A stretch of DNA of 64,000 nucleotides from Gemmatimonadaceae bacterium. GTDB taxonomy: Bacteria > Gemmatimonadota > Gemmatimonadetes > Gemmatimonadales > Gemmatimonadaceae. The notes under the pieces are model-generated. The model was not told the DNA's origin. It searched no databases and saw only the letters and a program-made list of their open reading frames with translations. Position numbers and translations under genes: made by a program. Below, one piece after another: positions 8,658 through 29,211 of the stretch. The first letter of the stretch is position 1; every line of letters starts with the position of its first letter. Where the stretch lies: assembly GCA_019752115.1 (NCBI GenBank), contig JAIEMN010000003.1:62001-126000 (forward strand). Reading direction: 5' to 3'.

Positions 8658-10481
8658 ATGATTCGAGCGTCCCGCCGCATCGCTCTGGCATTGACCTTCA
8701 GCGCGGGCGCGCTGAGGGCGCAGGCGCCCAGTGTCAGCAAGGTCGAACCGCCCAATTGGTGGGCGAACCACAGCATCAACCCCGTGCGCGTGCTCGTGCG
8801 CGGGGCGCACCTGGCGGGCGCACGCGCGTCGTGTGCGCCGCTGGTCTGCGGTGCGGTGACCGTGAATGCGGCCGGCACCTACGCGATGCTCGATGTGCGC
8901 ATCGCGCCAACGATCAAGCCGGGTGACTATCCCATCACGCTGACCACGGCACAGGGGAGCGCGAAGGCACCCTTCACCGTGAGCGCCCAGCTCCCCACGA
9001 TGGGGCGCTTTCAGGGCTTCTCGAACGATGACGTGATCTATCTGATCATGCCCGATCGGTTCGCGAACGGCGATACCACCAATGATCGCACCAAGAAGTC
9101 GCCGGGGATTCTCGATCGCACCAAGCGGCGCTGGTACCACGGCGGAGACCTCGCCGGCGTACGCAAGCAGCTGCCGTACCTCAAGTCGCTCGGCATCACC
9201 GCGCTCTGGATGACGCCGGTGTACGATCAGAACGACGGCGAGGATACCAAGGAGGTCTACGATGGTCAGACCAGCACCGGCTATCACGGCTACGGCGCGG
9301 TGGACTTCTACAACGTGGACGAGCACCTCGGTACGCTCGCTGAGCTGCGCGCGCTGACGGATGAGGCGCACGCGATGGGGATCAAGCTGGTGATGGACAT
9401 GGTCGCGAACCACACCGGCCCCTATCACCCATGGGTGAAGGACGCGCCGACGCCGACCTGGTTCCATGGCACCGAAGCCCAGCATCCGAACAACGACTGG
9501 CAGACGTGGACGCTGCGCGACCAGGCCGCGAATCTGGCCATGACGAAAACGGTGCTCGACGGCTGGTTCGTGAACATCCTGCCCGATCTCAATCAGGATG
9601 ATCCGGAGGTCGCGAAGTACATCATCCAGAACACCCTCTGGTGGGCCGGCGTCAGCGGCATCGATGCCATCCGTCAGGATACGTGGCAGTACGTGCCGGT
9701 GAAGTTCTGGCGCGACTGGATGGCCGCGATCAAGAAGCAGTATCCGAAGATGAACGTGGTGGGTGAAGTACTCGACGGCGACCCGGCCCACATTGCGTAC
9801 TTCGAAGGCACGCATGTCACGCCGGACGGCGTGAAGACGGGGGTGGACTACATGTTCGACTTCCCGATGCACTTCGTGATGCGCGAGGCCTTCGCCCGCG
9901 GCGGCTCGCTGCGGGAAGTGGTGAAGATGCTGTCGCGCGACTTCCTCTATGCCAATCCGAACGCGATGGTGACGCTGCTCGGGCTGCACGACGAGCCGCG
10001 GTTCATGGGGGAGCGTGGGGCGACGGTGGCCGGACTCAAGCTGGCGTACACGCTCCTGCTCACCAATCGCGGCACGCCGATGCTCTACTACGGCGACGAG
10101 ATCGCCATGCCCGGCGGTGGTGATCCGGACAACCGCCGCGACTTCCCCGGCGGCTGGCCGGGCGACGCGACCAATGCCTTCACCCCCGCCGGTCGGACCG
10201 CCGATCAGCAGAGCGTGTGGACGCACATCCAGACGCTGCTGCAGCTCCGCGCCAAGACCCCCGCGCTGCGCACGGGCAAGATCGAACACCTGCTCGCCAC
10301 CGAACAGCAGTTCGTCTATCGCCGCGGCACCGTGGTAGTGGCGATCAACAACGCGAACACCCCGGCGACAGTCACACTCCCGGTGCCGGCGATCGGATCC
10401 GATGTCCTCAAGGCGTGTGCGTCGCTTAGTGGCACGGCGTTGACGATCCCGGCGCGTTCAAGCTGCGTATTCGTGCCGTAG
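8658..10481 (+). CDS. Exported GH13 enzyme, cyclomaltodextrinase/neopullulanase (SusA-like)
   Basis: 607 residues with an N-terminal signal peptide (hydrophobic stretch ending LRAQAPS), so probably periplasmic. An N-terminal beta domain (about 25-115) precedes the barrel, as in neopullulanases and SusA. GH13 region I is VMDMVANHTG, the nucleophile region is AIRQDTW, the acid region is VVGEVLDGD, and region IV is LGLHDEPRF; all catalytic residues are present. The calcium-loop segment DRFANGD is also typical. It would cut imported maltodextrins before inner-membrane transport. It starts four bases after the transporter stop. Exact specificity is not readable. Confidence 0.88.
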   Translation: MIRASRRIALALTFSAGALRAQAPSVSKVEPPNWWANHSINPVRVLVRGAHLAGARASCAPLVCGAVTVNAAGTYAMLDVRIAPTIKPGDYPITLTTAQGSAKAPFTVSAQLPTMGRFQGFSNDDVIYLIMPDRFANGDTTNDRTKKSPGILDRTKRRWYHGGDLAGVRKQLPYLKSLGITALWMTPVYDQNDGEDTKEVYDGQTSTGYHGYGAVDFYNVDEHLGTLAELRALTDEAHAMGIKLVMDMVANHTGPYHPWVKDAPTPTWFHGTEAQHPNNDWQTWTLRDQAANLAMTKTVLDGWFVNILPDLNQDDPEVAKYIIQNTLWWAGVSGIDAIRQDTWQYVPVKFWRDWMAAIKKQYPKMNVVGEVLDGDPAHIAYFEGTHVTPDGVKTGVDYMFDFPMHFVMREAFARGGSLREVVKMLSRDFLYANPNAMVTLLGLHDEPRFMGERGATVAGLKLAYTLLLTNRGTPMLYYGDEIAMPGGGDPDNRRDFPGGWPGDATNAFTPAGRTADQQSVWTHIQTLLQLRAKTPALRTGKIEHLLATEQQFVYRRGTVVVAINNANTPATVTLPVPAIGSDVLKACASLSGTALTIPARSSCVFVP

Positions 10482-14817: not shown

Positions 14818-15606
14818 ATGGGAATCGCCGTGCCGTCCGAGCCGAGTGCTGCCCAGGAGCAGCTGCTCGCCCGCCTCTCGGAAGAGAAGACGATCGACGC
14901 ACTGAATCGCCTGCTGGACCGTCTGGACGTCATTGCGTTCACTGCCGATGCCCTGAGTGGCTTCCTGGCGCGCGCCGATGTGGTCGCGGAGAGTGTGGCC
15001 TCCAGCGTCGCCGATCTCAAGAAGATGACGGGCGAGGAGACAACCGCCGGTGAGGTGATCGGTCGCCTGCCCCAGCTGGCCAAGGCCAGCGTGCAGCTTG
15101 CGGATGTCACGGCGTCGCCGGCGTTCGACCGGATCATCAATTCGCCCCTGCTGGAGCGCCTCGGCGATCCCAAGGTGCTTCAGTCGCTCCTCGATGTGTT
15201 GGACCGCCTCGAACTGGCCTCGTTCGTCCTCGAGAGCGTGGACGGCTTCCTCAAGCGCAGTGAGGGGATTGGCCAGGCGCTCTCCGAAGACGTGGCGGAT
15301 CTCAAGAAGGCCACGCAGCCCGATCTGGTGAAGCTCAAGGAGGTCATGCGCGCCATGCCCGCGCTGGTGACCGCCGGGCAGACGCTGGTGAAGTCGGGGA
15401 TGCTCGAACCCAAGGCCGTCGAGGCGCTCGGCAAGATCGGCCGGTCGGTGGCCGACTCCTACGACGAGGCGCGCGCGGTCAAGCGGGAAACCCGGCCGCT
15501 GGGGCTCTTCGGTCTGCTCAAGGCCATTCGCGACCCGGATGTGAATCGCGCGCTCGATTTCGCCCTGCACGTCTCGAAGGCCTACGGGCAGAACCTCAGC
15601 AAGTAA
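14818..15606 (+). CDS. DUF1641-type protein with internal duplication, head of hyp/hydrogenase operon
   Basis: 262 residues. Start chosen because AGGAGG lies seven bases upstream (14805-14810). The protein is alpha-helical by composition and contains two similar segments, about residues 29-69 and 121-164, both with a LLDxLD core and ending in ADLKK. This resembles DUF1641 proteins, which accompany formate dehydrogenases and hydrogenases; no biochemical function is established. It is six bases upstream of hypA and diverges from hypF, so it leads the rightward operon. A role in hydrogenase assembly or docking is inference from position. Confidence 0.7.
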
Positions 15607-15611
15607 TCGCC

Positions 15612-15991
15612 ATGCACGAACTCTCCATTGCGCATGGCATCGTCGACGTGGCCGTCGGTGAAGCGCGCCGCCTCGGCGCCGTGCGGGTCAGCGCCGTGCA
15701 CGTGGCGGTCGGGCGGTTGTCAGGGATTGAGGCGGGCGCGCTGCTCTTCTGCTACGACATCGCCACCGCGGGTACGCCCCTCGACGGCTCGCGGCTGGTC
15801 ATCGAGGACGTCCCGATCAGCATCTACTGCAAGCCGTGCGGCTCGGAGAAGGCGCTGCCGGGCGTGAACCGCTTTCGGTGTCCGGACTGTCAGACGCCGA
15901 GCGGCGACATTCGGCGGGGGCGTGAGCTGGAATTGACGCATCTGGAGGTGGAGCAGCCGGATTTCACGCCGCTCACCCAGAGTGCCGCCTC

Positions 15992-15995
<4 letters not shown>
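15612..15995 (+). CDS. hypA: Hydrogenase nickel-insertion protein HypA
   Basis: 127 residues. It begins with the invariant MHELS, whose Met and His are nickel ligands in the family. The C-terminal half has the zinc site as YCKPC and RCPDC. HypA hands nickel to the large subunit together with HypB. It starts six bases after the DUF1641 gene and overlaps hypB by four bases (ATGA). Confidence 0.95.
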
Positions 15996-16711
<716 letters not shown>

Positions 16712-16762: not shown

Positions 16763-18481
16763 ATGGCGTCCCGACCGCGTGTGGCGCACCCACTGAAACT
16801 CGAAGACGGCGGCAGCCATCCACTGCGCTCCGCGGCGGACCGGCTGCAGCACGTGTTCACCGTCGCGCAGCTGCTCGCGCGCGAACCGGATGGCGCGACG
16901 CTCGCCGCCGAGCTGGCGGCGCTGTTGCCGCCAATGCTCGGGGCGGATCTCGCACTGGTGGCGACGGTGATCGACAGTGAGATCACCGCCGTGGCCGGCG
17001 GCGCGGTGCTGGACCCGGCCATCACCGCCGTGATGCGCGCCATCATGACCGTCGCGGCGACCCGACGTGAGCGTCTGGTGTCGAACGACCCGTTCACGAT
17101 GCTGCCAGGCACCTTCTCCACGCCGGCGAGTGTGGGGTACGGCAGTCTCGCCGTGATGCCCGCGTTGCATCACGCCGGGCACGCCGTCGCCGTGTTGCTG
17201 GTGGCGAGCCCGGACGAACGCGCGTTCACCGATTCGGACCTGATGCTCCTCGGCACGATCGCGGAGCAGACCGTGGTAGGCCTCGACCGGGCGCAACTGC
17301 TGGGGCGCCTGTCGGAATGGTCCAACGGGATGGAGGCGTTGCTCGCGTTCTCGGGCTCGGTGCATCAGCATCGGGCGCCCGAAGTGCTCGTGAACGAGAT
17401 GGTCGAGCATGCGGCTCGCTTTCTCAAAGCCGACGCCGGTCGCGGCGGGCTCGCCGTGGCGAGACCGAGTGGCGATCTGGTCATGGAGGCCACGGCCTAC
17501 TGGCAGCATGGGCAATGGACGCGCGCCACGCGTCGCTGGCCTCGGAAGCAGGGGATCCCGGGGATCGTGCTCGACCACGAGTTCGCGTATCTCGCCCCCG
17601 ATTACCCGAACGATCCGGCCGCCGATCCCGATCTCGTCACCGAAGGGACCATCCGTCACGCGCTCTGTGTCCCCCTGCGTGACGCGATGCATACGGTGGT
17701 GGGGTTTCTCGAATTACATCGGGGCGTGGAGCGCGCGGCGTTCACCTGGAACGATGCGGCGTTTCTCGAGGCGCTGGCGGACACCACCGCCATGGCGATC
17801 GAGAACGCGCGGCTGGTGAACGCGCTGGAGGCGAAGAACGACGAGATCCGGCAGCTCTTCGCGCGCCATGCCGAACGGCTGGAAGAAGAGCGGCAACACA
17901 TCGCCCGCGATCTGCACGATGAAACCGGGCAGGCGCTCGTGGGGGTCAAGCTGGCGCTGCAGGTGCTGTCGCGCGTCGTGCCCGCCACCGATCCAACCCT
18001 CGCAGCGCCGCTCGATGAGCTGCGTCTGCAGGTGAATCAGGCGACCTCGCGGTTCCGTCAACTCGCCCGGCGGCTGCGCCCCCCGAGTCTCGACCAGCAT
18101 GGTTTGGCCTCGGCCATCGGCCAGTTGGCGCACGATGCCGAACAACGGAGTGGGCTGCAGGTGTCGGTCGCGTTCGAGGGGATCGACGAACGGCGCTGGC
18201 CGCTGCACGAAACCGCGGTGTTCCGCATCGTGCAGGAGGCGCTCACGAACGTGTGCGTGCATGCGCAGGCCACGACATGTGCCGTGCGCGTGTCGCATAC
18301 CGGGCATTCCCTGGCCGTGCGCATCACCGACGACGGCCGTGGCTTCCGCCCCGATGAGCGCACGCCCGGGCTGGGGCTACGCGGCATCGGCGAACGCGTC
18401 CACATGCTCGGCGGGACGCTGCAGGTGTCGAGCGCCCCCGGCGAGGGGACGCGCCTGCTGATCGATCTGCCGCTGTCGTAG
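16763..18481 (+). CDS. Soluble GAF-GAF histidine kinase (NarL/DegS class), candidate hydrogenase regulator
   Basis: 572 residues without membrane segments. Two GAF-like domains (about 25-190 and 195-355), then a HisKA_3 domain with ERQHIARDLHDETGQAL (phospho-acceptor His385) and a HATPase_c domain with DDGRGF and GLGLRGIGERV. The GAF part has a single Cys (about residue 302), so a cysteine-bound Fe-S sensor is unlikely; haem or a small molecule remains possible. It sits 51 bases after hypB and three bases before its response regulator, inside the hydrogenase locus. Control of the hydrogenase genes is inferred from location. Confidence 0.88.
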   Translation: MASRPRVAHPLKLEDGGSHPLRSAADRLQHVFTVAQLLAREPDGATLAAELAALLPPMLGADLALVATVIDSEITAVAGGAVLDPAITAVMRAIMTVAATRRERLVSNDPFTMLPGTFSTPASVGYGSLAVMPALHHAGHAVAVLLVASPDERAFTDSDLMLLGTIAEQTVVGLDRAQLLGRLSEWSNGMEALLAFSGSVHQHRAPEVLVNEMVEHAARFLKADAGRGGLAVARPSGDLVMEATAYWQHGQWTRATRRWPRKQGIPGIVLDHEFAYLAPDYPNDPAADPDLVTEGTIRHALCVPLRDAMHTVVGFLELHRGVERAAFTWNDAAFLEALADTTAMAIENARLVNALEAKNDEIRQLFARHAERLEEERQHIARDLHDETGQALVGVKLALQVLSRVVPATDPTLAAPLDELRLQVNQATSRFRQLARRLRPPSLDQHGLASAIGQLAHDAEQRSGLQVSVAFEGIDERRWPLHETAVFRIVQEALTNVCVHAQATTCAVRVSHTGHSLAVRITDDGRGFRPDERTPGLGLRGIGERVHMLGGTLQVSSAPGEGTRLLIDLPLS

Positions 18482-18484
18482 CGC

Positions 18485-19114
18485 ATGGCCAAGGCGCGAA
18501 TTCTGCTGGTGGACGATCATGCGCTCGTGCGGCGCGGCCTGGCCGTGCTCCTGCGCATGGATTCGCGCTTTGAGGTCGTGGGCGAAGCCGGGTCGGGGGA
18601 GGCCGCGCTCGCGGCCGTGGAGCAGTTGCGCCCCGACGTGATGGTGCTCGATCTCAACATGCCGGGGATCGACGGCCTGGAGACGCTCCGCCGGCTCCGC
18701 AGCAAGCCGATCCCCGTGAAGGTCCTGATCCTCACGATGCACGACGAAATGCATCTGGTGGGGCAGGCGATGACGAGTGGGGCCGACGGCTACCTGCTCA
18801 AGGATTCGATGGACGACGAGCTCTTTCAGGCCATCGACGGGGTGATTCGCGGCCAGAAGTACGTGGCGGCGGCGATCGACCGGAGCCGGCTGCTGGAGGT
18901 CACCGCGCGTCCGACGACTCTCACCACGCGCGAGCGCGAGGTGCTGCAGCTCATTGCGGCGGGGCATACCACGAGCGAAGTCGCCGAACGGCTCAACATT
19001 TCGCCGCACACGGCTACGCGGCACCGCGCGAATCTCATGCAGAAGCTCGATGCCCACAACCAGGTCGAGCTGGTGCGCATTGCGTCGTCGCAGGGGCTGA
19101 TCGTGCTGGGGTAG
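18485..19114 (+). CDS. NarL/FixJ-type response regulator, candidate hydrogenase regulator
   Basis: 209 residues. Receiver domain with LLVDDHALVRRGL and the phospho-acceptor Asp56 in MVLDLNMPGIDG, then a linker and a LuxR-type helix-turn-helix (LTTREREVLQLIAAGHT through AERLNISPHTATRHRANLM). It is partnered with the kinase three bases upstream and lies immediately before the hhyS leader, so autoregulation and control of hhySL are plausible. The regulated genes cannot be read from sequence. Confidence 0.92.
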   Translation: MAKARILLVDDHALVRRGLAVLLRMDSRFEVVGEAGSGEAALAAVEQLRPDVMVLDLNMPGIDGLETLRRLRSKPIPVKVLILTMHDEMHLVGQAMTSGADGYLLKDSMDDELFQAIDGVIRGQKYVAAAIDRSRLLEVTARPTTLTTREREVLQLIAAGHTTSEVAERLNISPHTATRHRANLMQKLDAHNQVELVRIASSQGLIVLG

Positions 19115-19255: not shown

Positions 19256-20227
19256 ATGGCAACGGTGCTGTGGCTGCAGGGCGGCGCGTGTTCCGGCAAC
19301 ACGATGTCGTTCCTGAATGCCGAAGAACCGAGCGCGTGCGATCTGGTGACCGACTTCGGCATTGAGATCCTGTGGCACCCCTCCCTGGGCCTCGAGATGG
19401 GCGCCCCCGTGCGTCAGCTCCTCGATGACCTGGCGAGCGGCAAGAAGCAGCTCGACATCTTCGTGTTTGAAGGCACCGTGATCCTCGGGCCCAACAACAC
19501 CGGTCGGTTCAACATGTTCGCCGACCGCCCCATGAAGGACTGGGTGAAGGAGATCGCCAGTCACGCCGGTGCTGTCGTCGCGCTGGGCGACTGCGCCTGC
19601 TGGGGCGGCATCCCGGCCACCGAGCCCAATCCGGTGGACTCCGTAGGGTTGCAGTACCTCAAGCGCAAGCACGGCGGCTTCCTGGGGAGCGACTTCAAGT
19701 CCAAGTGGGGGCTGCCGGTCGTGAACATCCCCGGCTGCCCGACGCATCCGGACTGGGTCACGCAGATCCTCGTGGCCATCGCCGCCGGCCGCGCTGGCGA
19801 TATCGCGCTCGACGACCTCCAGCGCCCGCAGACGTTCTTCAAGACGTTCACGCAGACCGGCTGTACACGCGTGCAGTACTTCGAGTACAAGCAGAGCACG
19901 ATGGAGTTCGGCCAGGGTACGCGTCAGGGCTGCCTCTTCTACGAACTCGGCTGCCGTGGGCCCATGACGCACTCGCCGTGCAATCGCATTCTGTGGAACC
20001 GGCAGAGCTCCAAGACGCGCGCCGGCATGCCCTGCACCGGGTGCACCGAGCCCGAGTTCCCGTTCCACGATCTCAAGCCGGGCACGGTGTTCAAGACGCA
20101 GAAGGTGAGTGGCACGATTCCGAAGGAAGTGCCCACCGGGACGGATCACGTCTCGTACATGGCACACGCGGCGGCCGCGCGCATCGCGGCGCCGAAGTGG
20201 ACGAAGGAAGACATGTTCGTCGTCTGA
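19256..20227 (+). CDS. hhyS: Group 1h (Hhy) [NiFe] hydrogenase small subunit
   Basis: 323 residues from MATVLWLQGG, preceded by AGGAG. Electron-transfer subunit carrying three Fe-S clusters. There is no Tat signal peptide, as in cytosolic-side Hhy enzymes. The N-terminal motif is GGACSGN: the second Cys of the usual CxxC is Asn, a hallmark of this group, where structural work on the Ralstonia actinobacterial-type enzyme showed an Asp as substitute ligand. Further cluster cysteines are Cys113/115, Cys161 (NIPGCPTHP), Cys203, Cys226, Cys233, Cys242, Cys260 and Cys263. The C-terminus WTKEDMFVV is also typical of the group. Confidence 0.95.
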   Translation: MATVLWLQGGACSGNTMSFLNAEEPSACDLVTDFGIEILWHPSLGLEMGAPVRQLLDDLASGKKQLDIFVFEGTVILGPNNTGRFNMFADRPMKDWVKEIASHAGAVVALGDCACWGGIPATEPNPVDSVGLQYLKRKHGGFLGSDFKSKWGLPVVNIPGCPTHPDWVTQILVAIAAGRAGDIALDDLQRPQTFFKTFTQTGCTRVQYFEYKQSTMEFGQGTRQGCLFYELGCRGPMTHSPCNRILWNRQSSKTRAGMPCTGCTEPEFPFHDLKPGTVFKTQKVSGTIPKEVPTGTDHVSYMAHAAAARIAAPKWTKEDMFVV

Positions 20228-20268: not shown

Positions 20269-21891
20269 ATGGCCACGGCGACTCAGCCGGTGAACGACCT
20301 CCGCATCTCCCCGCTTGGACGCGTCGAGGGGGACCTCGATCTCCGCGTCACGATTCGTGACGGCGTGGTGACCGATGCGTGGACCGAAGCGAGCATGTTC
20401 CGCGGGTTTGAGATCATTCTTCGCGGCAAGGATCCGCAGGCGGGGCTGATCGTGACGCCGCGCATCTGCGGTATCTGCGGCGGCTCGCACCTCTACAAGA
20501 GCGCGTATGCGTTGGACACGGCGTGGAAGACGCACATGCCGCAGAACGCGACCCTCATTCGCAACATTGCGCAGGCGTGCGAGACGCTGCTCTCCATTCC
20601 ACGCTGGTTCTACGCGCTGTTTGCGATCGACCTCTGCAACAAGAAGTACGCGCACCTGCCCGAGTATGACGAAGTGGTCCGCCGCTTTGCCCCGTTCGTC
20701 GGCACCAGTTTCGAGCCGGGGGTCACGCTGTCCGCCAAGCCGGTGGAGGTGTACGCCATGTTCGGCGGCCAGTGGCCGCACTCGAGCTTCATGATCCCGG
20801 GCGGCGTGATGTGCGCGCCCAGCCTCTCGGACGTCACGCGCTCCATCGCCATTCTGGACATGTGGAAGCGCGAGTGGCTCGAGAAGCAGTGGCTCGGCTG
20901 TTCCATCGAGCGCTGGATGGAGATCAAGAGCTGGAATGACATGCTGGCCTGGGCGGAAGAGAACGAGTCGCAGCGCAACTCCGACTGTGGCCTGTTCATC
21001 CGCTTTGCGCAGCGGGCCGGGCTCGACAAGTACGGCCAGGGTGTTGGTGCGTATCTCGCCACCGGGACGTTCTTCGAGCCGTCGCTTTACGAGCACCCCA
21101 CGGTGGACGGGCGCAATAGCGCGCTCATCACCCGCTCCGGCATCTATGACGGGTCGAGCTTCCACGACTTTGACCATCTGAACGTGCGTGAGGACACGGC
21201 GCACTCGTTCTATCGTGGCGACAAGTCGCTGCACCCGTGGCAGGGCGAGACCGACCCGATCGATCCGCTCGAAGGGCACAAGCAGGGCAAGTACTCGTGG
21301 GCCAAGTCACCGCGCTACGATGTGCCGGGCAAGGGCGCGATCCCGCTCGAAGTCGGTCCGCTGGCGCGTCAGGTCATCGCCGGCCGCCCGGGGAATGCCG
21401 CGCACCAGGACTACGATCCGTTCATCATGGACGCGATCAAGACCGCGGGCCCGAGCATCTTCACCCGAGTGATGGCGCGCATGCACGAGGCGCCCAAGTA
21501 CTACGCGATGGTCCGGAAGTGGCTCGACCAGATCGACCTGCACGGCCGCTTCTACAACAAGCCGGTGGAACTCGAGAGTGGTCGCGGCTTCGGGTCCACC
21601 GAAGCGGCACGTGGCTCGCTCTCCGACTGGATCGTGCTGAGCGGCGGCAAGATCGAGAACTACCAGGTCATCACGCCCACCGCGTGGAATATCGGCCCGC
21701 GCGACCGGCTCGGCCGCCACGGCCCCATGGAAGCCTCGTTCATCGGTGCCGAAATCCAGGATCCCACCGATCCGATCGAGATGGGCCACGTGGCCCGCTC
21801 CTTTGACTCGTGCCTCGTGTGCACGGTGCACGCGTACGACGAGAAGACGGGTAAGGAGCTCTCGCGCTTCCGCATCGGCGAGATGGGGTGA
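20269..21891 (+). CDS. hhyL: Group 1h (Hhy) [NiFe] hydrogenase large subunit
   Basis: 540 residues. Holds the NiFe(CN)2CO active site that splits H2. The first nickel motif is RICGICGGSH (Cys67, Cys70); the second is DSCLVCTVH (Cys515, Cys518, His521), followed by a 19-residue tail that the downstream endopeptidase would remove. The DSC variant replaces the common DPC. The sequence around SPLGRVEGDLDL is the usual hydrogenase N-terminus. Group 1h enzymes have very high affinity and oxidise atmospheric H2 during carbon starvation. It lies 41 bases downstream of hhyS. Confidence 0.95.
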   Translation: MATATQPVNDLRISPLGRVEGDLDLRVTIRDGVVTDAWTEASMFRGFEIILRGKDPQAGLIVTPRICGICGGSHLYKSAYALDTAWKTHMPQNATLIRNIAQACETLLSIPRWFYALFAIDLCNKKYAHLPEYDEVVRRFAPFVGTSFEPGVTLSAKPVEVYAMFGGQWPHSSFMIPGGVMCAPSLSDVTRSIAILDMWKREWLEKQWLGCSIERWMEIKSWNDMLAWAEENESQRNSDCGLFIRFAQRAGLDKYGQGVGAYLATGTFFEPSLYEHPTVDGRNSALITRSGIYDGSSFHDFDHLNVREDTAHSFYRGDKSLHPWQGETDPIDPLEGHKQGKYSWAKSPRYDVPGKGAIPLEVGPLARQVIAGRPGNAAHQDYDPFIMDAIKTAGPSIFTRVMARMHEAPKYYAMVRKWLDQIDLHGRFYNKPVELESGRGFGSTEAARGSLSDWIVLSGGKIENYQVITPTAWNIGPRDRLGRHGPMEASFIGAEIQDPTDPIEMGHVARSFDSCLVCTVHAYDEKTGKELSRFRIGEMG

Positions 21892-21907: not shown

Positions 21908-22396
21908 ATGAACGAACCGGCACGCGTCCTCATCGTCGGCTGCGGAAATCTCCTCCGCGGCGACGATGCGGTCGGTCCCATCCTGGTGCGGCACCTCTGG
22001 CAACGAGGGGTGCCGCACTTGGTGCGTTGTGCAGACGGGGGCACGGGCGGCATGGACGTGGCCTTTCAGATGCGCGGCGTCCCGCACGTCATCATCGTTG
22101 ATGCCTGCACCAGCGGCTCCGAGCCCGGCTCGATATTCCGCCTCAGTGGCACCGACTGCGAAACGCCACCGTTGGCTGGCGTCAATCTCCACGCCTTCCG
22201 CTGGGATCACGCGCTCGCCTTTGCCCGGTGGGCGCTCAAGGAGGAGTACCCGCCGCGTATCGACGTGTGGCTCATCGAGGCCGAGCGCCTGGAAGTGGGC
22301 GAGCCGTTGTCGCCCAAGGTGGAAGCCGCGATGCACCGCGTGTGCGATCTGCTGATGCAGGAAGTCGACGTGTCACTCGCCGAGGCCGCCGCGTGA
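21908..22396 (+). CDS. Hydrogenase maturation endopeptidase (HyaD/HybD family)
   Basis: 162 residues. The start GCGNLLRGDDAVGPILVRHL is the family signature, with the acidic nickel-sensing residue in RGDD; a second acidic site is in VDACTSGS. It removes the C-terminal tail of HhyL after nickel insertion. ATG at 21908 was preferred because the family starts just before this motif. It is 16 bases after hhyL, and its stop overlaps the next gene by four bases (GTGA). Confidence 0.92.
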   Translation: MNEPARVLIVGCGNLLRGDDAVGPILVRHLWQRGVPHLVRCADGGTGGMDVAFQMRGVPHVIIVDACTSGSEPGSIFRLSGTDCETPPLAGVNLHAFRWDHALAFARWALKEEYPPRIDVWLIEAERLEVGEPLSPKVEAAMHRVCDLLMQEVDVSLAEAAA

Positions 22397-22707
22397 CGAG
22401 CGCGCAGATCGAGCTCACGGCGCACGGCTATCTCGTGCTCACCTCGCAGGTCGCGCGCGCGTTCTTCCCGAACGACACGCTGCTCGCCATGCCGCGCGGT
22501 CAGGAGCTCTGGCTGCTCCCTACCCGCGGACCGGGCGGCGGTGGGCTGATGCTCAAGCAGCGCAACCTGCAGGGCGATCGCAGCGTGCTCGTGCGCGAAG
22601 CGCTCAACGATCGATACCCCGTCGGCCAGCTCCCCGCTTTCTGGGATGACCAGGCCGGCGCGCTCCGCGTCGCGATGGTCACCGAGCGCGCGCATGGTGC
22701 CCTTTGA
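22393..22707 (+). CDS. Small hydrogenase-cluster protein of unknown function (104 aa)
   Basis: GTG start overlapping the endopeptidase stop. Starts VTSAQIELTAHGYLVL; contains FFPNDTLLAM, ELWLLPTRGPGGGGLMLKQRN and FWDDQAGALRVAM. No signal peptide, membrane segment, or metal-binding Cys pattern. I recognise no named family. The tight overlaps on both sides (4 bases upstream, 14 bases with the next gene) argue for a real cytoplasmic protein made with the endopeptidase; an assembly role is only a guess. Confidence 0.75.
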   Translation: MTSAQIELTAHGYLVLTSQVARAFFPNDTLLAMPRGQELWLLPTRGPGGGGLMLKQRNLQGDRSVLVREALNDRYPVGQLPAFWDDQAGALRVAMVTERAHGAL

Positions 22708-22897
22708 TGACAGCCCCGTCATCGCCCTGCACACCCGCGTGGAGTACGAACACGGGCGATGGGTCGTCTACGCCGACGCCGTCTGCATCCCGGAGACGGA
22801 GGAATACGTGATCACCCACCGCGTCAGCGATCACCCGAGGAAGGAAGCCGCCGAGTTGGCCGCGAAATGGATCGCCCGCACCGCCAACAAACCGTAG
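22694..22897 (+). CDS. Very small hydrogenase-cluster protein of unknown function (67 aa)
   Basis: ATG at 22694 overlaps the preceding gene by 14 bases. The predicted 67-residue protein begins MVPFDDSPVIALHTRV and looks like a short beta-rich domain followed by a helix (KEAAELAAKWIARTAN). No family recognised. Coding is supported by the overlapping operon arrangement and protein-like composition. It is followed by a 15-base-period repeat rather than by another overlapping gene. Confidence 0.65.
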   Translation: MVPFDDSPVIALHTRVEYEHGRWVVYADAVCIPETEEYVITHRVSDHPRKEAAELAAKWIARTANKP

Positions 22898-22904
22898 GCC
22901 CGCG

Positions 22905-22979
22905 TTCCCGCAGTCCAGCTCCCGCAGTTCCAGCTTCCGCAGTACAGGCTTCCGCCGTGCGAACGTCCCGCGGTCCCCA
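22905..22979 (+). repeat. Five degenerate 15-base direct repeats inside the hydrogenase operon
   Basis: Non-coding spacer between the 67-aa gene and the TPR gene. The core TTCCCGCAGTCCAGC recurs with a period of 14-16 bases about five times, decaying to the right (TCCCGCAGTTCCAGC, TTCCGCAGTACAGGC, TTCCGCCGTGCGAAC, GTCCCGCGGTCCCCA). It could be a regulator-binding array, a translational spacer, or simply slippage. Confidence 0.7.
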
Positions 22980-22997
22980 CCCCAAAGATCACTCCCC

Positions 22998-24242
22998 ATG
23001 ATCCGCCCCCAGCCCCTAGGCCTCCACCCCTACCCCGCCGGCCTCCTCCTCCTCCCCGCCTCGCTCGACAACGAGCCGAGGGAGCTGGATACGGAAGCCC
23101 TGCGCGCGCTCATGCGCGGCGGCACGCCGGACTGGTGGCCCGAGTCGTGGGGCTTCTACGCGGCCGCGCTCCGCGGTGAGCGGGAGGCAGCCTTTGACGC
23201 GCTCCCCGGGCAATCCAACGCGCTCGCCAGCTACAACCGGTACGTACTGGGCGGCAACGCGCTTGATCGGCGTCATGCCGAGCGCATGGGTGACCACGTC
23301 GTGCGGACACTCACCCAACTGGCCGCCTTCGTGATGGGCGAAAGCGATGCCCTGCCAGCGCTCGATGCCCTCGACGGCGAGCTGGCCGCGCATGGCGCCC
23401 TGATGGTGGCCAGCGCGCACCTCGAGCACGGGCGACACGCCGAAGCAGCCGCCGCACTCGACGCCGGCATTGCCGCGGCGCGCGCCACCTCGCCGCTGCT
23501 GGCCGCGCAGCTGCTGCTGCAGCGCGCCTCGCTCAACGACGACGGCGCCGCCGCCGAACAGCAGCTGCGCGACGCCATCGCCCTCGCCGCCGATACGCCG
23601 CTCGCGTCGCTGACCGCCGAACTGTGGTGCGCGCTCGCCTTTGTGGTCCATCAGCGTGCCGAGACGCACCGCATGCGCCTGGTCGAAGCGGCCGAGCACT
23701 ATCAGCGCGCGTTGCGCACCGGGATCACGAAGGAGTCGCACCCCGATCTGTGGGCCCGCATTCAGGTGAATCTCGGGCTGATCTATGTGGCCATGCCCAT
23801 GAGCGAGCAGGGCGAAAAGCTCCGGCTGGCGGTGGCCGTGCAGGCGTTCCGCGAAGCGCTGCACGTCTACACGCGCGAGACGCACCCCGATGAGTGGGCG
23901 AGCACGATGCTCAACATGGCCAACGCCATGCAGTATCTCCCCAGCGCCAAGCAGGCCGAGAATCTCGCCGATGCGGTGACCGCGTACGAGGAGCTGCTGT
24001 CGGTGCGTCCCAAGGAGTTCGACCCGGTGGGATATGCGCGCATTCTCGCGAACCAGGGGAACGCCCTCGCGCATCTGGGCATCTTTGGCCCGGCCGTGGA
24101 GAAGCTCACGGAGGCGCACAAGCTGCTCCACTGGCACGGCGAGGCCGATGCGGCCCAGCGCCTGCTGGCGCAGCTCGAGCAGATCAACGAACAGCTGGCG
24201 CTCGCCGGCAGCGCGTCGGCCGATGCCACGGGAGCGGTCTGA
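22998..24242 (+). CDS. TPR-repeat protein of the hydrogenase cluster
   Basis: 414 residues, no signal peptide, helical throughout. Several tetratricopeptide-like helix pairs, clearest from about residue 245 (RIQVNLGLIYVAMP, LAVAVQAFREALHVYTRETHP, TMLNMANAMQYLP, YARILANQGNALAHLG). The N-terminal part starts RPQPLGLHPYPAGLLLLPASL and carries a WWPESWGFYAAALRGE segment. TPR folds mediate protein contacts, so a scaffold or chaperone role for hydrogenase assembly is reasonable inference. The next gene starts within its stop codon (TGATG). Confidence 0.82.
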   Translation: MIRPQPLGLHPYPAGLLLLPASLDNEPRELDTEALRALMRGGTPDWWPESWGFYAAALRGEREAAFDALPGQSNALASYNRYVLGGNALDRRHAERMGDHVVRTLTQLAAFVMGESDALPALDALDGELAAHGALMVASAHLEHGRHAEAAAALDAGIAAARATSPLLAAQLLLQRASLNDDGAAAEQQLRDAIALAADTPLASLTAELWCALAFVVHQRAETHRMRLVEAAEHYQRALRTGITKESHPDLWARIQVNLGLIYVAMPMSEQGEKLRLAVAVQAFREALHVYTRETHPDEWASTMLNMANAMQYLPSAKQAENLADAVTAYEELLSVRPKEFDPVGYARILANQGNALAHLGIFGPAVEKLTEAHKLLHWHGEADAAQRLLAQLEQINEQLALAGSASADATGAV

Positions 24243-24616
24243 TGGACCTGCACGCGCGGCAGCAGTTCGACTTCTTCTTCAACAGCGCGATTGAGCGCTT
24301 TGTGGAGCGGATTGAGCAACGGTGTGGTGGCCCGGTGCCGGCGCTCGCGCGCCTACGCGAAGACACCAACGGCGATGGCGTCTGGATCGATGAGTTCGTG
24401 TCGGCGCTCTTCACCGATTTCCTGCTCGACAACACCGCGGGGGCCGCGTTCATCCTGCAGGCGCTGGCCAAGTGGCCGGTGCCGGTAGTGATCGAACCCG
24501 CCCGCACGGTGAGCGACTGGATGCAGCTCGTCGCCCGTCACGCCTTCGCGAGTGTACTGGCCGCCAAGACCGAGGAGGCGCTCGAGCAGCGCCTCGCCTT
24601 TCAGATCACGGACTGA
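24242..24616 (+). CDS. Hydrogenase-cluster protein of unknown function (124 aa)
   Basis: Starts MDLHARQQFDFFFNSAIERF in the TPR gene stop (TGATG). Predicted soluble and helical, with a DTNGDGVWIDEF segment that looks like an EF-hand loop by spacing, though no calcium role is claimed. No family recognised. Its place between the TPR and NifU-Rieske genes implies a role in the same process. Confidence 0.72.
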   Translation: MDLHARQQFDFFFNSAIERFVERIEQRCGGPVPALARLREDTNGDGVWIDEFVSALFTDFLLDNTAGAAFILQALAKWPVPVVIEPARTVSDWMQLVARHAFASVLAAKTEEALEQRLAFQITD

Positions 24617-24633
24617 CTCCCCGAGCCCCATCC

Positions 24634-25521
24634 ATGACCGCGATCGCACCGCAGCCGCAACCGGCGGCCACGACCGATGCCCCCAAGACCCTCGAGCAGC
24701 TCGCGGGCGACGTGCAGCGTACGCTCGACGACGTGCGTGGGATGCCCATCGATCACCGCACGCGCGCGCTGGCGCTCAAGGACGCCGTGGAGGCGTTCCA
24801 CAAGGCCGGCCTCACGACCATCGTGAAAGCCCTCAAGGGCGACCCGCACGGCAAGGCACTGCTGCTCGACCTCGTCGATGACCCGGGCGTCTTTTCGCTC
24901 TTTTCGCTGCACGGCATCATCCGGAGCGATGTCCGCACGCGCGTGGCGCGCGTCATCGAGAATCTCCGCCCGTACACGCAGTCGCATGGCGGTGATGTCA
25001 CGCTCGTGGACATCAGCGAGGACACCGTCTACGTGAAGCTCAGCGGCGCCTGCAACGGGTGCAGCATGTCGAGCGTGACGCTGCGTCGCGGGGTGGAGGA
25101 CGCGCTCAAGGAGCAGGTCCCCGAGATCACCAAGATCGAGGTGGTGCCCAACACTCCCGAGGAGAAGCCCACGCTCGTGTCGCTCTCCCGCGCGCCCAAG
25201 AACGACGGCTGGGTGGATGGGCCGCTCGTGAGCGAACTCACGCCGTCGCGCCCGTATCGGCAGGACCTGCCCGAAGGGCGCAGCATCGTCGTCCTGCTGG
25301 TGGGGGACGAGGTGAAGGCGTATTGGAATGAGTGCGCACATCTGGGGCTCGCCATCGACGGGGGGATGGTGGATCAGAGCAACGGCACGATCACCTGCCC
25401 GTGGCATGGCTTCTCGTACGACTGCGCCAGCGGCGAGTGCCTGAGTGCGCCGCAGGCACAGCTCGAAGGCGTGCCGGCGCGCGTCACGGAGGGCCGGGTG
25501 CAACTGCGCCCGGTCTCGTGA
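24634..25521 (+). CDS. hhyE: NifU-Rieske fusion Fe-S protein, HhyE/HucE-like electron carrier
   Basis: 295 residues. A NifU C-terminal-type domain (about 100-172) has the CNGC cluster site (Cys140, Cys143); a Rieske domain (about 205-292) has CAH (Cys234, His236) and CPWH (Cys255, His258), the complete [2Fe-2S] ligand set. The N-terminal 95 residues are helical and unassigned. Similar Fe-S proteins encoded with mycobacterial high-affinity hydrogenases (HucE, HhyE) are proposed to link the hydrogenase to the respiratory chain. There is no membrane anchor or signal peptide, so it is cytosolic. Symbol given by domain content and context. Confidence 0.85.
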   Translation: MTAIAPQPQPAATTDAPKTLEQLAGDVQRTLDDVRGMPIDHRTRALALKDAVEAFHKAGLTTIVKALKGDPHGKALLLDLVDDPGVFSLFSLHGIIRSDVRTRVARVIENLRPYTQSHGGDVTLVDISEDTVYVKLSGACNGCSMSSVTLRRGVEDALKEQVPEITKIEVVPNTPEEKPTLVSLSRAPKNDGWVDGPLVSELTPSRPYRQDLPEGRSIVVLLVGDEVKAYWNECAHLGLAIDGGMVDQSNGTITCPWHGFSYDCASGECLSAPQAQLEGVPARVTEGRVQLRPVS

Positions 25522-25528
25522 GCCACGC

Positions 25529-26734
25529 ATGACCGCCACCACGTGGCAGCCGCTGCTGCGCTGTGGCGCGGCGTCGCCGTTCGGGCTGGCGCTCCCCAGC
25601 GCGCAGCCCACCGCGTCGCAGCTCTATGCACCGCGCGGCGTCTGGTTCAACGATGACCTGCTCATCGTGGCCGACTCCGGGAATCATCGCGTGCTCATCT
25701 GGCATGGGCTGCCGAATGTGAGCGGCACCGACGCCGACGTGGTGCTGGGTCAACCCGACTTTCAGAGTGAAGGCCCTGCCGCCGGCGGCCGGTCGCGCGC
25801 CAATGGGCTGCATTTGCCCACCGGCGTGCTCGTGCACGACGGCAAGCTCATCGTGGCCGATGCCTGGCATCATCGGTTGCTCGTGTGGAACGAGATCCCC
25901 ACCCGCAACTACGAGCCGCCCAGCTACGCGATCGGCCAACCCACGCTCGAGGAGGTCTCGCCGAACGGCGGCAGCGACATCGATGGCAATGCGCTCTACT
26001 GGCCGTACGGCATGGGCGTGACCGGCTCGATGTTCTGGATTGCCGACACCGGCAACCGCCGCGTGCTGGGGTGGGAGGGACTCCCGGAGCCGGGCGATTA
26101 CGCCGCGGTGGTGCTGGGACAGGACGATGCGCGCCGGGGCGACGAAAACCGCGGCATTGGTCCCAGCGCTCGGTCGTTCCGCTGGCCGCACGCCATTGCC
26201 GGTGATGCCGACACGCTCTTCGTGGCCGATGCCGGCAATCACCGCATTCTCGGGTGGACTCCCATTCCGGAAGAGGATCGCCATGCCGATCTGCTGCTCG
26301 GACAGGCCGGCTTTGAGCGCAACGAGGAGCTCCCGCACCGCCCGCAGGGAGCGCACCGGATGCGCTTCCCGTACGCCATCGCGCAAGACGCCGGGCGGCT
26401 CGTGGTCGCCGATACCGCCAACAACCGCGTCCTCACCTGGGACGGGGTCCCCCGCGTCGGCGTGCAGCGACCGGCGGACGGCGTGCTCGGCCAACTCAAC
26501 TTCGATGCCGCCGGCGAAAACCGGTGGAAGAGTGTCGCCGATGACACCCTCTGCTGGCCCTATGGGCTGTGGTTGCACGGGAATCGGCTCGCCATTGCCG
26601 ATTCGGGGAATAACCGGATGATGTTGTGGGAAATTCCCGGATGGCGGGGGGCGGATCCCGAGGCGTATGCTCACGACACCCCCCAGGACGCCTCACAGGC
26701 GGAGCCCGATTATGTGTCTCGCAGTCCCCGGTAA
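25529..26734 (+). CDS. Cytosolic six-repeat NHL beta-propeller protein of the hydrogenase cluster
   Basis: 401 residues. Six copies of an NHL-type motif are visible: ADSGNHRVLIW, ADAWHHRLLVW, ADTGNRRVLGW, ADAGNHRILGW, ADTANNRVLTW and ADSGNNRMMLW, enough for a closed six-bladed propeller. No signal peptide. Propellers of this type bind proteins or small ligands; the function in hydrogenase operons is not established. The ATG at 25529 is eight bases after the Rieske gene stop. Its 3' end overlaps hypC by 23 bases. Confidence 0.85.
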   Translation: MTATTWQPLLRCGAASPFGLALPSAQPTASQLYAPRGVWFNDDLLIVADSGNHRVLIWHGLPNVSGTDADVVLGQPDFQSEGPAAGGRSRANGLHLPTGVLVHDGKLIVADAWHHRLLVWNEIPTRNYEPPSYAIGQPTLEEVSPNGGSDIDGNALYWPYGMGVTGSMFWIADTGNRRVLGWEGLPEPGDYAAVVLGQDDARRGDENRGIGPSARSFRWPHAIAGDADTLFVADAGNHRILGWTPIPEEDRHADLLLGQAGFERNEELPHRPQGAHRMRFPYAIAQDAGRLVVADTANNRVLTWDGVPRVGVQRPADGVLGQLNFDAAGENRWKSVADDTLCWPYGLWLHGNRLAIADSGNNRMMLWEIPGWRGADPEAYAHDTPQDASQAEPDYVSRSPR

Positions 26735-27008
26735 AATCGTCGAGATCTCCGACGACGGGATGGTCCGGATGGCCAAGCTCGACTTTGGCGGCATCCAGAA
26801 GCAAGTGTGCCTGGCGTACCTCCCCGACGCCGTCGTGGGCGACTACGCCATCGTGCACGTGGGCTTTGCCATCAGCCGCATCGACGAAGCCTCGGCGCAG
26901 GAAACGCTGCGGCACTTCCGCGAGCTCGGCTTGCTCGAGGAAGAGCTCGGGGAGATCCCCGACGACGAATACGCGCCGCCGCCCCCCTGCCCGGTCACCT
27001 ACCAGTGA
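26712..27008 (+). CDS. hypC: Hydrogenase maturation chaperone HypC
   Basis: 98 residues, starting with the invariant MCLAVPGK; the Cys2 carries the Fe(CN)2CO unit with HypD and then docks on the large subunit. The start must be at 26712 because the Met-Cys must be terminal, so it overlaps the propeller gene by 23 bases. Its stop overlaps the hypD start (GTGA). Confidence 0.95.
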
Positions 27009-28126
27009 AGTACCTCACGGAGTTCCGCGACGGCGCCATCGCGCAGAAGTTGGCCGCCGAGATCCGCCAGATGACCACGCGGCACTGGGCCATCATGGAA
27101 GTGTGCGGTGGGCAGACGCACTCCATCATGCGCAATGGTATCGACCAGCTGCTGCCGAGCGAGATCGAGCTGATTCACGGCCCGGGGTGCCCGGTGTGCG
27201 TGACGCCGCTCGAGATGATCGACAAGGCGTTGGCCATCGCGGCGCTCCCGAACGTGATCTTCTGCAGCTTTGGTGACATGCTGCGCGTGCCGGGCTCCGA
27301 TCGCGATCTGTTCCGCGTAAAGAGCGAAGGTGGGGATGTGCGCGTCGTGTACTCGCCGCTCGACGCGGTGCAGCTCGCCGTGCAGCACCCCACCAAGCAG
27401 GTGGTGTTCTTCGGCATCGGCTTTGAGACCACCGCGCCGGCGAACGCCATGGCGGTGCATCTCGCCAAGAAGCAGGGGCTTACGAACTTCTCCATGCTGG
27501 TCTCGCATGTGCTGGTGCCGCCGGCCATCGATGCGATCATGCGCTCCCCCACCAACCGCGTGCAGGCCTTTCTCGCCGCGGGGCACGTGAACAGCGTCAT
27601 GGGCTTCTGGCAGTATCCGCCGCTCGCATCGCAGCACCGGGTGCCCATCGTGATCACGGGCTTCGAGCCGCTGGACGTGCTGGAAGGCATCCGCCGCTGC
27701 GTACGCCAGCTCGAGGCCGGTGAACACGAGGTGGAGAACGCGTACGAGCGCGTCGTCACGTTCGACGGCAATCGCGCGGCGCAGGCGCTACTCGAGGAAG
27801 TGTTCGCCGAAAGCGACCGCGCCTGGCGCGGCATTGGCGTGATCCCCCGGAGCGGGTGGAAGCTCAGCGACGCCTACGCCGACTACGACGCCGAGAACCG
27901 CTTCGATGTGTCGGACATCCACACGCACGAGTCGCCCGAGTGCCGGAGCGGTGAGGTGCTGCAGGGGGCCATCAAGCCCACCGACTGTCCGGCGTTCGGC
28001 AAGCAGTGCACGCCGCGCACGCCCTTCGGCGCCACGATGGTGAGCAGCGAAGGCGCGTGCGCCGCCTACTTCAACTACGGCCGCGTGGTGCAGCTGGAAC
28101 GGGTTCGCGTTCGGGTCCACGCATGA
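27005..28126 (+). CDS. hypD: Hydrogenase Fe-ligand assembly protein HypD
   Basis: 373 residues from a GTG overlapping the hypC stop. The conserved [26 protein letters not shown] and the C-terminal [4Fe-4S]-binding region ([30 protein letters not shown]) are complete. It builds the Fe(CN)2CO fragment on the HypC-HypD complex. Its stop overlaps the hypE start (ATGA). Confidence 0.96.
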
Positions 28127-29211
28127 CCTCCGTCACCTCCGCGCCGGCCACGACGGGCGCCACGATTTCGATGGACGAGTGGGCCTGCCCACTCCCGCTG
28201 CGCGACTACCCCACGGTCGTCCTCGGGCACGGCGGCGGCGGGCAGCTCTCGGCGGAGCTGGTGGAGCATCTCTTCCGTCCGGCGCTCGGTGGCGACGATC
28301 CGCCGCCGCTGACCGACTCCACGGTGCTCACGCTGCCCGGAACGCGCATCGCCTGCAGCACCGATTCGTTCGTGGTGAAGCCGCTGGTGTTTCCGGGGGG
28401 CAGCATCGGGACGCTCGCCGTGCATGGCACGGTGAATGACCTCGCCATGAGTGGGGCCACGCCGCTCTATCTCACGGCCGGATTCATTCTCGAGGAAGGG
28501 CTCCCCATGGCCACGCTCGCGCGCATCGTGAGCGACATGGGGCGCGCAGCGCGCGAGGCGGGCGTACGGATCGTCACCGGCGACACGAAGGTCGTGGAGC
28601 GCGGCAAAGGCGATGGCGTGTACATCAACACGGCCGGCATCGGCGTCGTTGCGGCGAACGTGGACATCGCCCCGCGCCGGGCGCAGGTCGGCGATGTGGT
28701 GCTGCTCAGCGGCACGATCGGCGACCATGGCATGGCGATCATGAGCCTGCGTGAAGGGCTCGAGTTCGACACCACCATCCAGAGCGACTCGGCCGCTCTG
28801 CACACCATGGTCGCCGCGCTGCTCGCCGCCGCGCCCGATGTGCACGTGATGCGTGACCCCACGCGCGGGGGAGTCGCCAGCTCACTCAACGAGATCGCGC
28901 AGGATGCACAGGTCGGCATCCAGATCCACGAGGAGCGCGTGCCGGTGCGCCAGGAAGTGCGCTCGGCGTGCGAACTGCTCGGGCTCGATCCCCTGTTCGT
29001 GGCTAACGAAGGGAAAATGCTGGCCATCGTGCCAGCGGCGCAGGCCGACGCCGCGCTCGCCGCGATGCGCGCGCACCGGCTTGGCGGGAACGCCGCGATC
29101 ATCGGTGAGGTGGTGGCCGATCACCCGGGGATGCTGGTGGAACGCACCACCATCGGCGCGCGCCGGGTGATCACGATGCAGATCGGGGAGCAGTTGCCGC
29201 GGATCTGCTGA
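28123..29211 (+). CDS. hypE: Hydrogenase cyanide-ligand synthase HypE
   Basis: 362 residues. PurM-like ATP-dependent dehydratase that turns the HypF-derived thiocarboxamide on its C-terminal Cys into thiocyanate. [31 protein letters not shown] and [13 protein letters not shown] are family motifs, and the protein ends in PRIC, so the catalytic terminal Cys is intact. The ATG overlaps the hypD stop. Last gene of the hydrogenase operon. Confidence 0.96.

Follow-up and report, generated by a model that had tools for sequence, protein, structure and literature searches.

A conserved six-gene helper set beside a Huc-type [NiFe]-hydrogenase in a Gemmatimonadaceae genome

Huc-type enzymes scavenge atmospheric H2 and have attracted interest for use in air-powered fuel cells, and several conserved genes flanking the structural genes may bear on how the oxygen-tolerant cluster chain of Huc is built. 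The best described enzyme, that of Mycobacterium smegmatis, was purified as HucS, HucL and HucM only and binds and reduces menaquinone itself. In its solved structure, Lys212, Tyr229 and Tyr301 of HucS make direct contact with menaquinone (PMC10017518), and HucS, HucL and HucM alone account for the 833-kDa particle. Deletion of hucE (MSMEG_2268) abolishes Huc activity in this species, the staining of Huc with the artificial acceptor nitroblue tetrazolium is also lost, and the authors of the deletion (Islam et al., 2019) held electron transfer to be the most plausible role of HucE (PMC6883350).

A similar gene group is found in the extended hyp-operon of Nostoc PCC 7120 (asr0689-alr0693), where genes for a TPR protein (alr0691), a NifU-like protein (alr0692) and an NHL protein (alr0693) lie between hupSL and the hyp genes, and a role in maturing the small subunit of the hydrogenase was suggested for this operon (Agervald et al., 2008, PMC2408588; Agervald et al., 2011). 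A 2020 paper mentioned NHL and Rieske members next to hucL, and the gene order analysed here was reported in Parageobacillus in 2026 (PMC12976888). A preliminary description of the present locus had named its six accessory genes the best candidate in the window for an undescribed molecular machine; undescribed they are not, since the Nostoc papers of 2008 and 2011 already cover the set and a genetic test of HucE dates from 2019. What is already known is therefore the set in Nostoc, as putative small-subunit maturation genes, and the essentiality of HucE in M. smegmatis. Apparently new are the gene fusions, the restriction of one small protein, S104, to Huc genomes and the ligand pattern of HucE, which were not found in the literature examined and may still have been published. 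For the five set proteins other than HucE, no interaction or mutant data were found in the literature examined.

A group 2a hydrogenase locus with six accessory genes

The window, that is, the whole analysed stretch of 64,000 nucleotides, carries the following hydrogenase-related genes.

14818..15606, forward strand: HucM homologue (DUF1641), membrane stalk; E 1e-9 to 7uus_Q and 1e-5 to 7utd_Q
15612..16711, forward strand: hypA and hypB, maturation genes, recognised in the ORF translations
19256..20227, forward strand: hucS, hydrogenase small subunit without signal peptide; E 5e-177 to the Huc small subunit 7uur
20269..21891, forward strand: hucL, hydrogenase large subunit, directly 3' of hucS; Pfam NiFeSe_Hases E 5e-81
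21908..22396, forward strand: hucD, HycI-type hydrogenase maturation protease; Pfam HycI E 5e-13
22393..22707, forward strand: S104, 104 aa, GTG start; predicted small beta-barrel, Huc-specific, single copy
22694..22897, forward strand: S67, 67 aa; predicted three strands and one helix
22998..24242, forward strand: TPR-like helical-repeat protein, 414 aa; Pfam TPR below cut-off (E 0.013)
24242..24616, forward strand: P124, 124 aa, predicted all-helical; an ORF for which a relative of known function was not found
24634..25521, forward strand: HucE, 295 aa, NifU-Rieske; Pfam NifU E 2e-26, Rieske E 6e-12
25529..26734, forward strand: NHL six-bladed propeller, 401 aa; Pfam NHL E 3e-22, six blade motifs
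26712..29211, forward strand: hypC (26712-27008), hypD and hypE, maturation genes, recognised in the ORF translations

The HucS match to the M. smegmatis Huc small subunit extends over the full length of the protein, its N-terminus (MATVLWLQGG) lacks a leader (Tat signal), and its alignment to 7uur_D shows identical residues at Lys212, Tyr229 and Tyr301, while HucL was assigned by its Pfam family and its position after hucS rather than by comparison with Huc. Judged by this homology, the [NiFe]-hydrogenase belongs to group 2a and its structural genes are hucSL, not hhySL (group 1h) as the preliminary description had named them. The HucM homologue, which is encoded in the locus but outside the six-gene set, matches the solved HucM chains in two non-overlapping regions and has its scaffold segment duplicated (internal repeat E 1e-12). 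A sensor kinase and a response regulator sit between hypB and hucS. The genome has a second hydrogenase, which adjoins an ORF reading like cytochrome b, and no set gene was found in 19.5 kb of sequence there.

The six ORFs lie one after another in the interval between the HycI-type protease and hypC (22393-26734), as first described, and because homologues in the same order were found in relatives, all six can be regarded as real genes; profiles made from the hypC/D/E and hypA/B genes of the window likewise recovered the same genes in related loci. The junctions from the protease to hypC measure -4, -14, +100, -1, +17, +7 and -23 bases, so that six of the seven are overlapping or no longer than 20 bases, in agreement with the close packing noted at the outset, the exception being the 100 bases 5' of the TPR gene. 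A hydropathy scan predicted no transmembrane segment in any of the six proteins. Pfam gave nothing credible for the 104-, 67- and 124-aa proteins. Structure prediction yielded confident models with pLDDT 89.7 for an S104-S67 fusion and 95.8 for P124, and Foldseek found no match at E <= 0.001 for the S104(-S67) or the P124 model. A resemblance of P124 to the DNA mimic T7 Ocr (Z 7.3) was set aside, as scores below about 13 carry little weight where helical bundles are compared, and P124 is only mildly acidic (18 acidic and 11 basic residues).

Linkage of the set to Huc across loci and genomes

One HucS scan of public genomes yielded 80 loci, which by record title belong to Gemmatimonadota, Acidobacteriota, Planctomycetota, Chloroflexota, Actinomycetota and a few others, and the 56 loci in which 9 kb or more of downstream sequence was available, the window and its relatives included, were used for counting. 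The TPR, HucE and NHL genes were present in 56 of 56 loci, each 3' of hucS-hucL-protease and in invariant order, and S104, S67 and P124 were present in 50, 45 and 35 of them, respectively. P124 was not found in the mycobacterial loci of the survey, where the TPR and HucE genes nearly abut. The hucM and hyp genes differ in place and strand among the 56 loci, whereas the order of the set is constant.

Because this survey was anchored on HucS, whole genomes were also searched, namely 249 from the window's phylum and 150 from the order to which a Mycolicibacterium locus belongs (399 in total). In the former sample, Huc-type HucS, S104, P124 and strong TPR matches all fell in the same seven genomes, and in the latter HucS and S104 fell in the same four. 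S104 thus occurred in exactly the 11 of 399 genomes with Huc and was absent from the 388 without Huc in these two samples, 80 of which (52 and 28, respectively) have another small-subunit profile match, some of these matches being partial and weak. Weak and partial TPR-profile matches outside the Huc genomes (E 1e-24 to 1e-4) were discounted, as they appear to represent helical-repeat proteins of other kinds. Furthermore, on plasmids the TPR gene was found by tblastn at a distance of up to 6 kb in 16 of 17 Huc-type records, and by profile in the seventeenth; the hosts add Deinococcota, Bacillota, Pseudomonadota and Bacteroidota. Overall, the set accompanies Huc in at least eight bacterial phyla. 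Collectively, these results show that Huc has a tightly conserved set of helpers in these six genes, and the earlier proposal that they belong together and to the hydrogenase is strongly upheld by co-occurrence.

Reciprocally, four actinobacterial loci called group 1h-like from their HhyE-like gene, not from phylogeny, were searched for the six proteins; the HucE relative alone was detected, and no relatives of S104, S67, TPR, P124 or NHL were detected there. Together with the HucS homology, these four loci rule out the Hhy reading.

Some members of the set also occur fused in single proteins: S104 and S67 are joined in Sulfobacillus and in five loci whose record titles are of the Acidobacteriota type (two phyla), and S104 and the TPR protein are joined in two Planctomycetota loci, L045 and L047. 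These fusions are the best evidence that S104, S67 and the TPR protein work together; the three probably form one complex, and the fusions suggest that they would also bind one another when unfused.

Members of the set can also be missing locally. At L018, S67 is absent and a gap of just 24 bases lies in its place, so it appears dispensable in some close relatives, and HucE, NHL, S67 or P124 can be missing elsewhere (L124, L119, L122); not every member is therefore needed in every lineage. In three alphaproteobacterial plasmid loci, the TPR and HucE genes are separated by genes for two ~70-aa proteins that contain hydrophobic segments, and HucM was not detected within 9 kb in these loci. A two-transmembrane ORF at that place was found in none of 66 main-survey loci, and HucM and the two-transmembrane pair do not strictly replace each other, as L047, L084 and L091 show neither. 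Plasmid loci of Runella and Hymenobacter carry S104-like and TPR genes 3' of the protease, with weak S104 matches (E ~0.003-0.006), and HucE is absent within 9 kb although Huc-type genes are present.

HucE and the probable role of the set

The HucE of the window, which the published definition of HucE fits (PMC6883350), consists of an N-terminal helical domain, a NifU domain with a CxxC motif (CNGC) and a C-terminal Rieske domain (CAH...CPWH, of the form CxH...Cxx(H/C)). All 65 HucE copies of the main survey that could be read keep the Rieske ligands (one more copy is masked), whereas the NifU cysteine pair was lost in eight of the surveyed copies, through a missing first cysteine in six and deletion of the domain in two (L036 and L047). 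Such losses in copies that keep the Rieske ligands weaken the view of HucE as essentially a NifU scaffold, and the pattern suits a redox protein more than it does a scaffold for clusters, although alone it does not indicate maturation. In L124, a further Huc locus in which the NHL gene was not found, HucE comprises only the N-terminal domain and a short cysteine-rich tail; this copy, the NifU losses and the copies without the C-terminal domain reported by Islam et al. (2019) together indicate that neither cluster domain is universal and that the N-terminal domain is.

As staining with nitroblue tetrazolium is lost upon hucE deletion, the defect does not lie only in handing electrons to quinone, and the phenotype suggests that HucE acts before or during assembly. 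Because the deletion is inactive even with this artificial acceptor and HucSL reduces quinone directly, we favour, at a probability of about 0.6, the reading of the six genes as a Huc-specific biogenesis set of the group 2a [NiFe]-hydrogenase, which most likely helps to build Huc rather than to pass its electrons to the membrane. This reading is supported by the fixed order of TPR, HucE and NHL, the restriction of S104 to Huc genomes and the fusions, by the absence of set genes at the second hydrogenase and of all but the HucE relative at the group 1h-like loci, and by the conserved quinone ligands of HucS and the presence of a HucM homologue.

For the individual proteins, we infer the following steps. 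One chaperone or scaffold complex of S104, S67 and TPR, frequently joined by P124, would act on nascent HucSL beside the protease HucD; HucE would be an Fe-S redox maturation factor that gives HucS an active cluster set in air; and the NHL propeller would serve as an interaction platform for the same assembly. An analogy is a rubredoxin-related factor that is cited as maturing a group 1d enzyme under air. The finished Huc would work without the set, with HucSL reducing menaquinone itself and HucM linking the enzyme to the membrane. A sharper version, which we regard as tentative and rather less probable than not, would make the set a dedicated assembly machine for the unusual chain of three [3Fe-4S] clusters in Huc, in which the S104-S67-TPR chaperone holds HucS and HucE sets the redox state at cluster loading, on a route separate from Hyp and HupGHIJK and confined to group 2a.

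The preliminary description had proposed that the propeller, the TPR protein and the Fe-S protein form a complex that docks the hydrogenase and relays electrons to quinone. A physical complex of at least three members (S104, S67 and TPR) is supported by the fusions, and the docking and relay function is disfavoured: given the separate HucM homologue, the kept quinone residues of HucS and the composition of purified Huc, both roles would, by homology, already be filled by HucM and HucSL. On this idea, HucE would be an electron carrier whose Rieske cluster takes electrons from HucS to the quinone pool, with TPR and NHL holding the complex together. The invariant Rieske ligands and the essentiality of HucE in M. 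smegmatis would suit such a carrier, which Islam et al. (2019) also favoured for HucE, citing the co-localisation of the related HhyE with Hhy on native gels. However, the purified HucS-HucL-HucM enzyme binds and reduces menaquinone directly through ligands conserved in the window, nitroblue tetrazolium fails to rescue the hucE deletion, and the Runella and Hymenobacter loci have Huc-type genes without a nearby HucE, so we consider this role unlikely.

More doubtful still is that the set encodes further structural subunits of mature Huc that are attached loosely and lost in purification; the set is strictly linked to hucSL and not to the hyp genes, and TPR and NHL folds are typical interaction platforms, both in line with this view, but the 833-kDa particle is explained without them, and hucE deletion removes all activity whereas hucM deletion removes just the large form. 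Finally, a role of S104 as a nucleic-acid-binding regulator of the operon is very improbable, as the best structural matches of its model, DNA-binding MraZ (Z 7.7 over 92 residues, and 7.3) followed by B3 domains (Z 4 to 5), are no more than suggestive of a shared MraZ/AbrB-like fold, Z below 8 being within the range of chance arrangements and Foldseek giving no match, while the fusions to S67 and the TPR protein suggest protein-protein work and a dedicated sensor kinase and response regulator are already in the locus.

The S104-S67-TPR complex, the Rieske and not the NifU site as the conserved part of HucE and the restriction to group 2a, if they hold, indicate which genes would be needed for an active Huc in another host.

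Comparison with known systems

HupGHIJK/HoxOQRTV of group 1d enzymes are a work-alike, being small proteins encoded beside the structural genes that mature the small subunit in air; no match of the window set to a family of this type was found in Pfam or NCBIfam scans, and hupGHIJ orthologues were not found in cyanobacterial genomes in the 2008 Nostoc paper (PMC2408588). In the Hhy system (group 1h), HhyE is homologous to HucE over the N-terminal and NifU parts, and the four group 1h-like loci have the two CxxC motifs of the HhyE type where the HucE of the window has its Rieske site.

The gene order of the window agrees with the description of the Nostoc operon, with TPR, NifU and NHL in order between structural and hyp genes (PMC2408588). 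Compared by description, not sequence, asr0689 and asr0690 are two-transmembrane proteins, unlike S104 and S67, and resemble the hydrophobic ~70-aa pair of the three alphaproteobacterial plasmid loci, and alr0692, again by description and not sequence, is without a Rieske domain, unlike the HucE of the window. In the Huc-type locus of Parageobacillus thermoglucosidasius 23.6, protease, hypothetical, TPR, hypothetical, NifU, NHL, hypC, hypD and hypE follow one another as in the window, and the transcript levels of TPR and NHL do not rise with those of their neighbours (PMC12976888).

The likeness to the M. smegmatis huc operon lies in the full-length HucS match, the HucM homologue and the NifU-Rieske HucE, and many Mycobacterium relatives also have the window's order S-L-D-s104-s67-TPR-E-NHL. 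The window differs from the M. smegmatis operon in its longer HucM with the duplicated scaffold segment and in the sensor kinase and regulator between hypB and hucS, and from the mycobacterial huc loci in the presence of P124.

Regulator pair and module spacer

In the window, hypB and hucS are separated by genes for a sensor kinase and a response regulator (16763-19114), and such a pair stands at the equivalent place in many Acidobacteriota and Gemmatimonadota loci; it may control the operon. The sole long spacer within the six-gene module (22898-22997) looks to include imperfect repeats with a CCGCAGTNCAGCTTC-like unit.

Variant and additional hydrogenase loci

Two small glycine-rich, hydrophobic proteins are encoded between TPR and hucE in the alphaproteobacterial Huc-type operons, at the following positions:
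L118, 14338-14779, small hydrophobic protein pair
L121, 14310-14755, small hydrophobic protein pair
L123, 14327-14775, small hydrophobic protein pair
HucM was not detected in these three operons, and the pair is a possible alternative means of membrane attachment. In L124, a further Huc locus, HucE (8820-9512) comprised only the N-terminal domain and a CGCSGGGSCAC tail, and the NHL gene was not found in the 16 kb read. The window genome carries a second [NiFe]-hydrogenase (L104, G000:C45:72500-92000), neighboured by a cytochrome-b-like ORF and multihaem-like ORFs. Two surveyed Huc loci (L082 and L090) came from MAGs titled Bifidobacterium breve, bins that are probably mixed or mislabelled.

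HucM length and particle architecture

The scaffold segment is duplicated in the window HucM homologue (14818-15606; internal repeat E 1e-12), and across the surveyed loci HucM was ~160-205 aa long in the actinobacterial ones versus ~250-330 aa in most of the others. Therefore, the Huc particle may be built differently.
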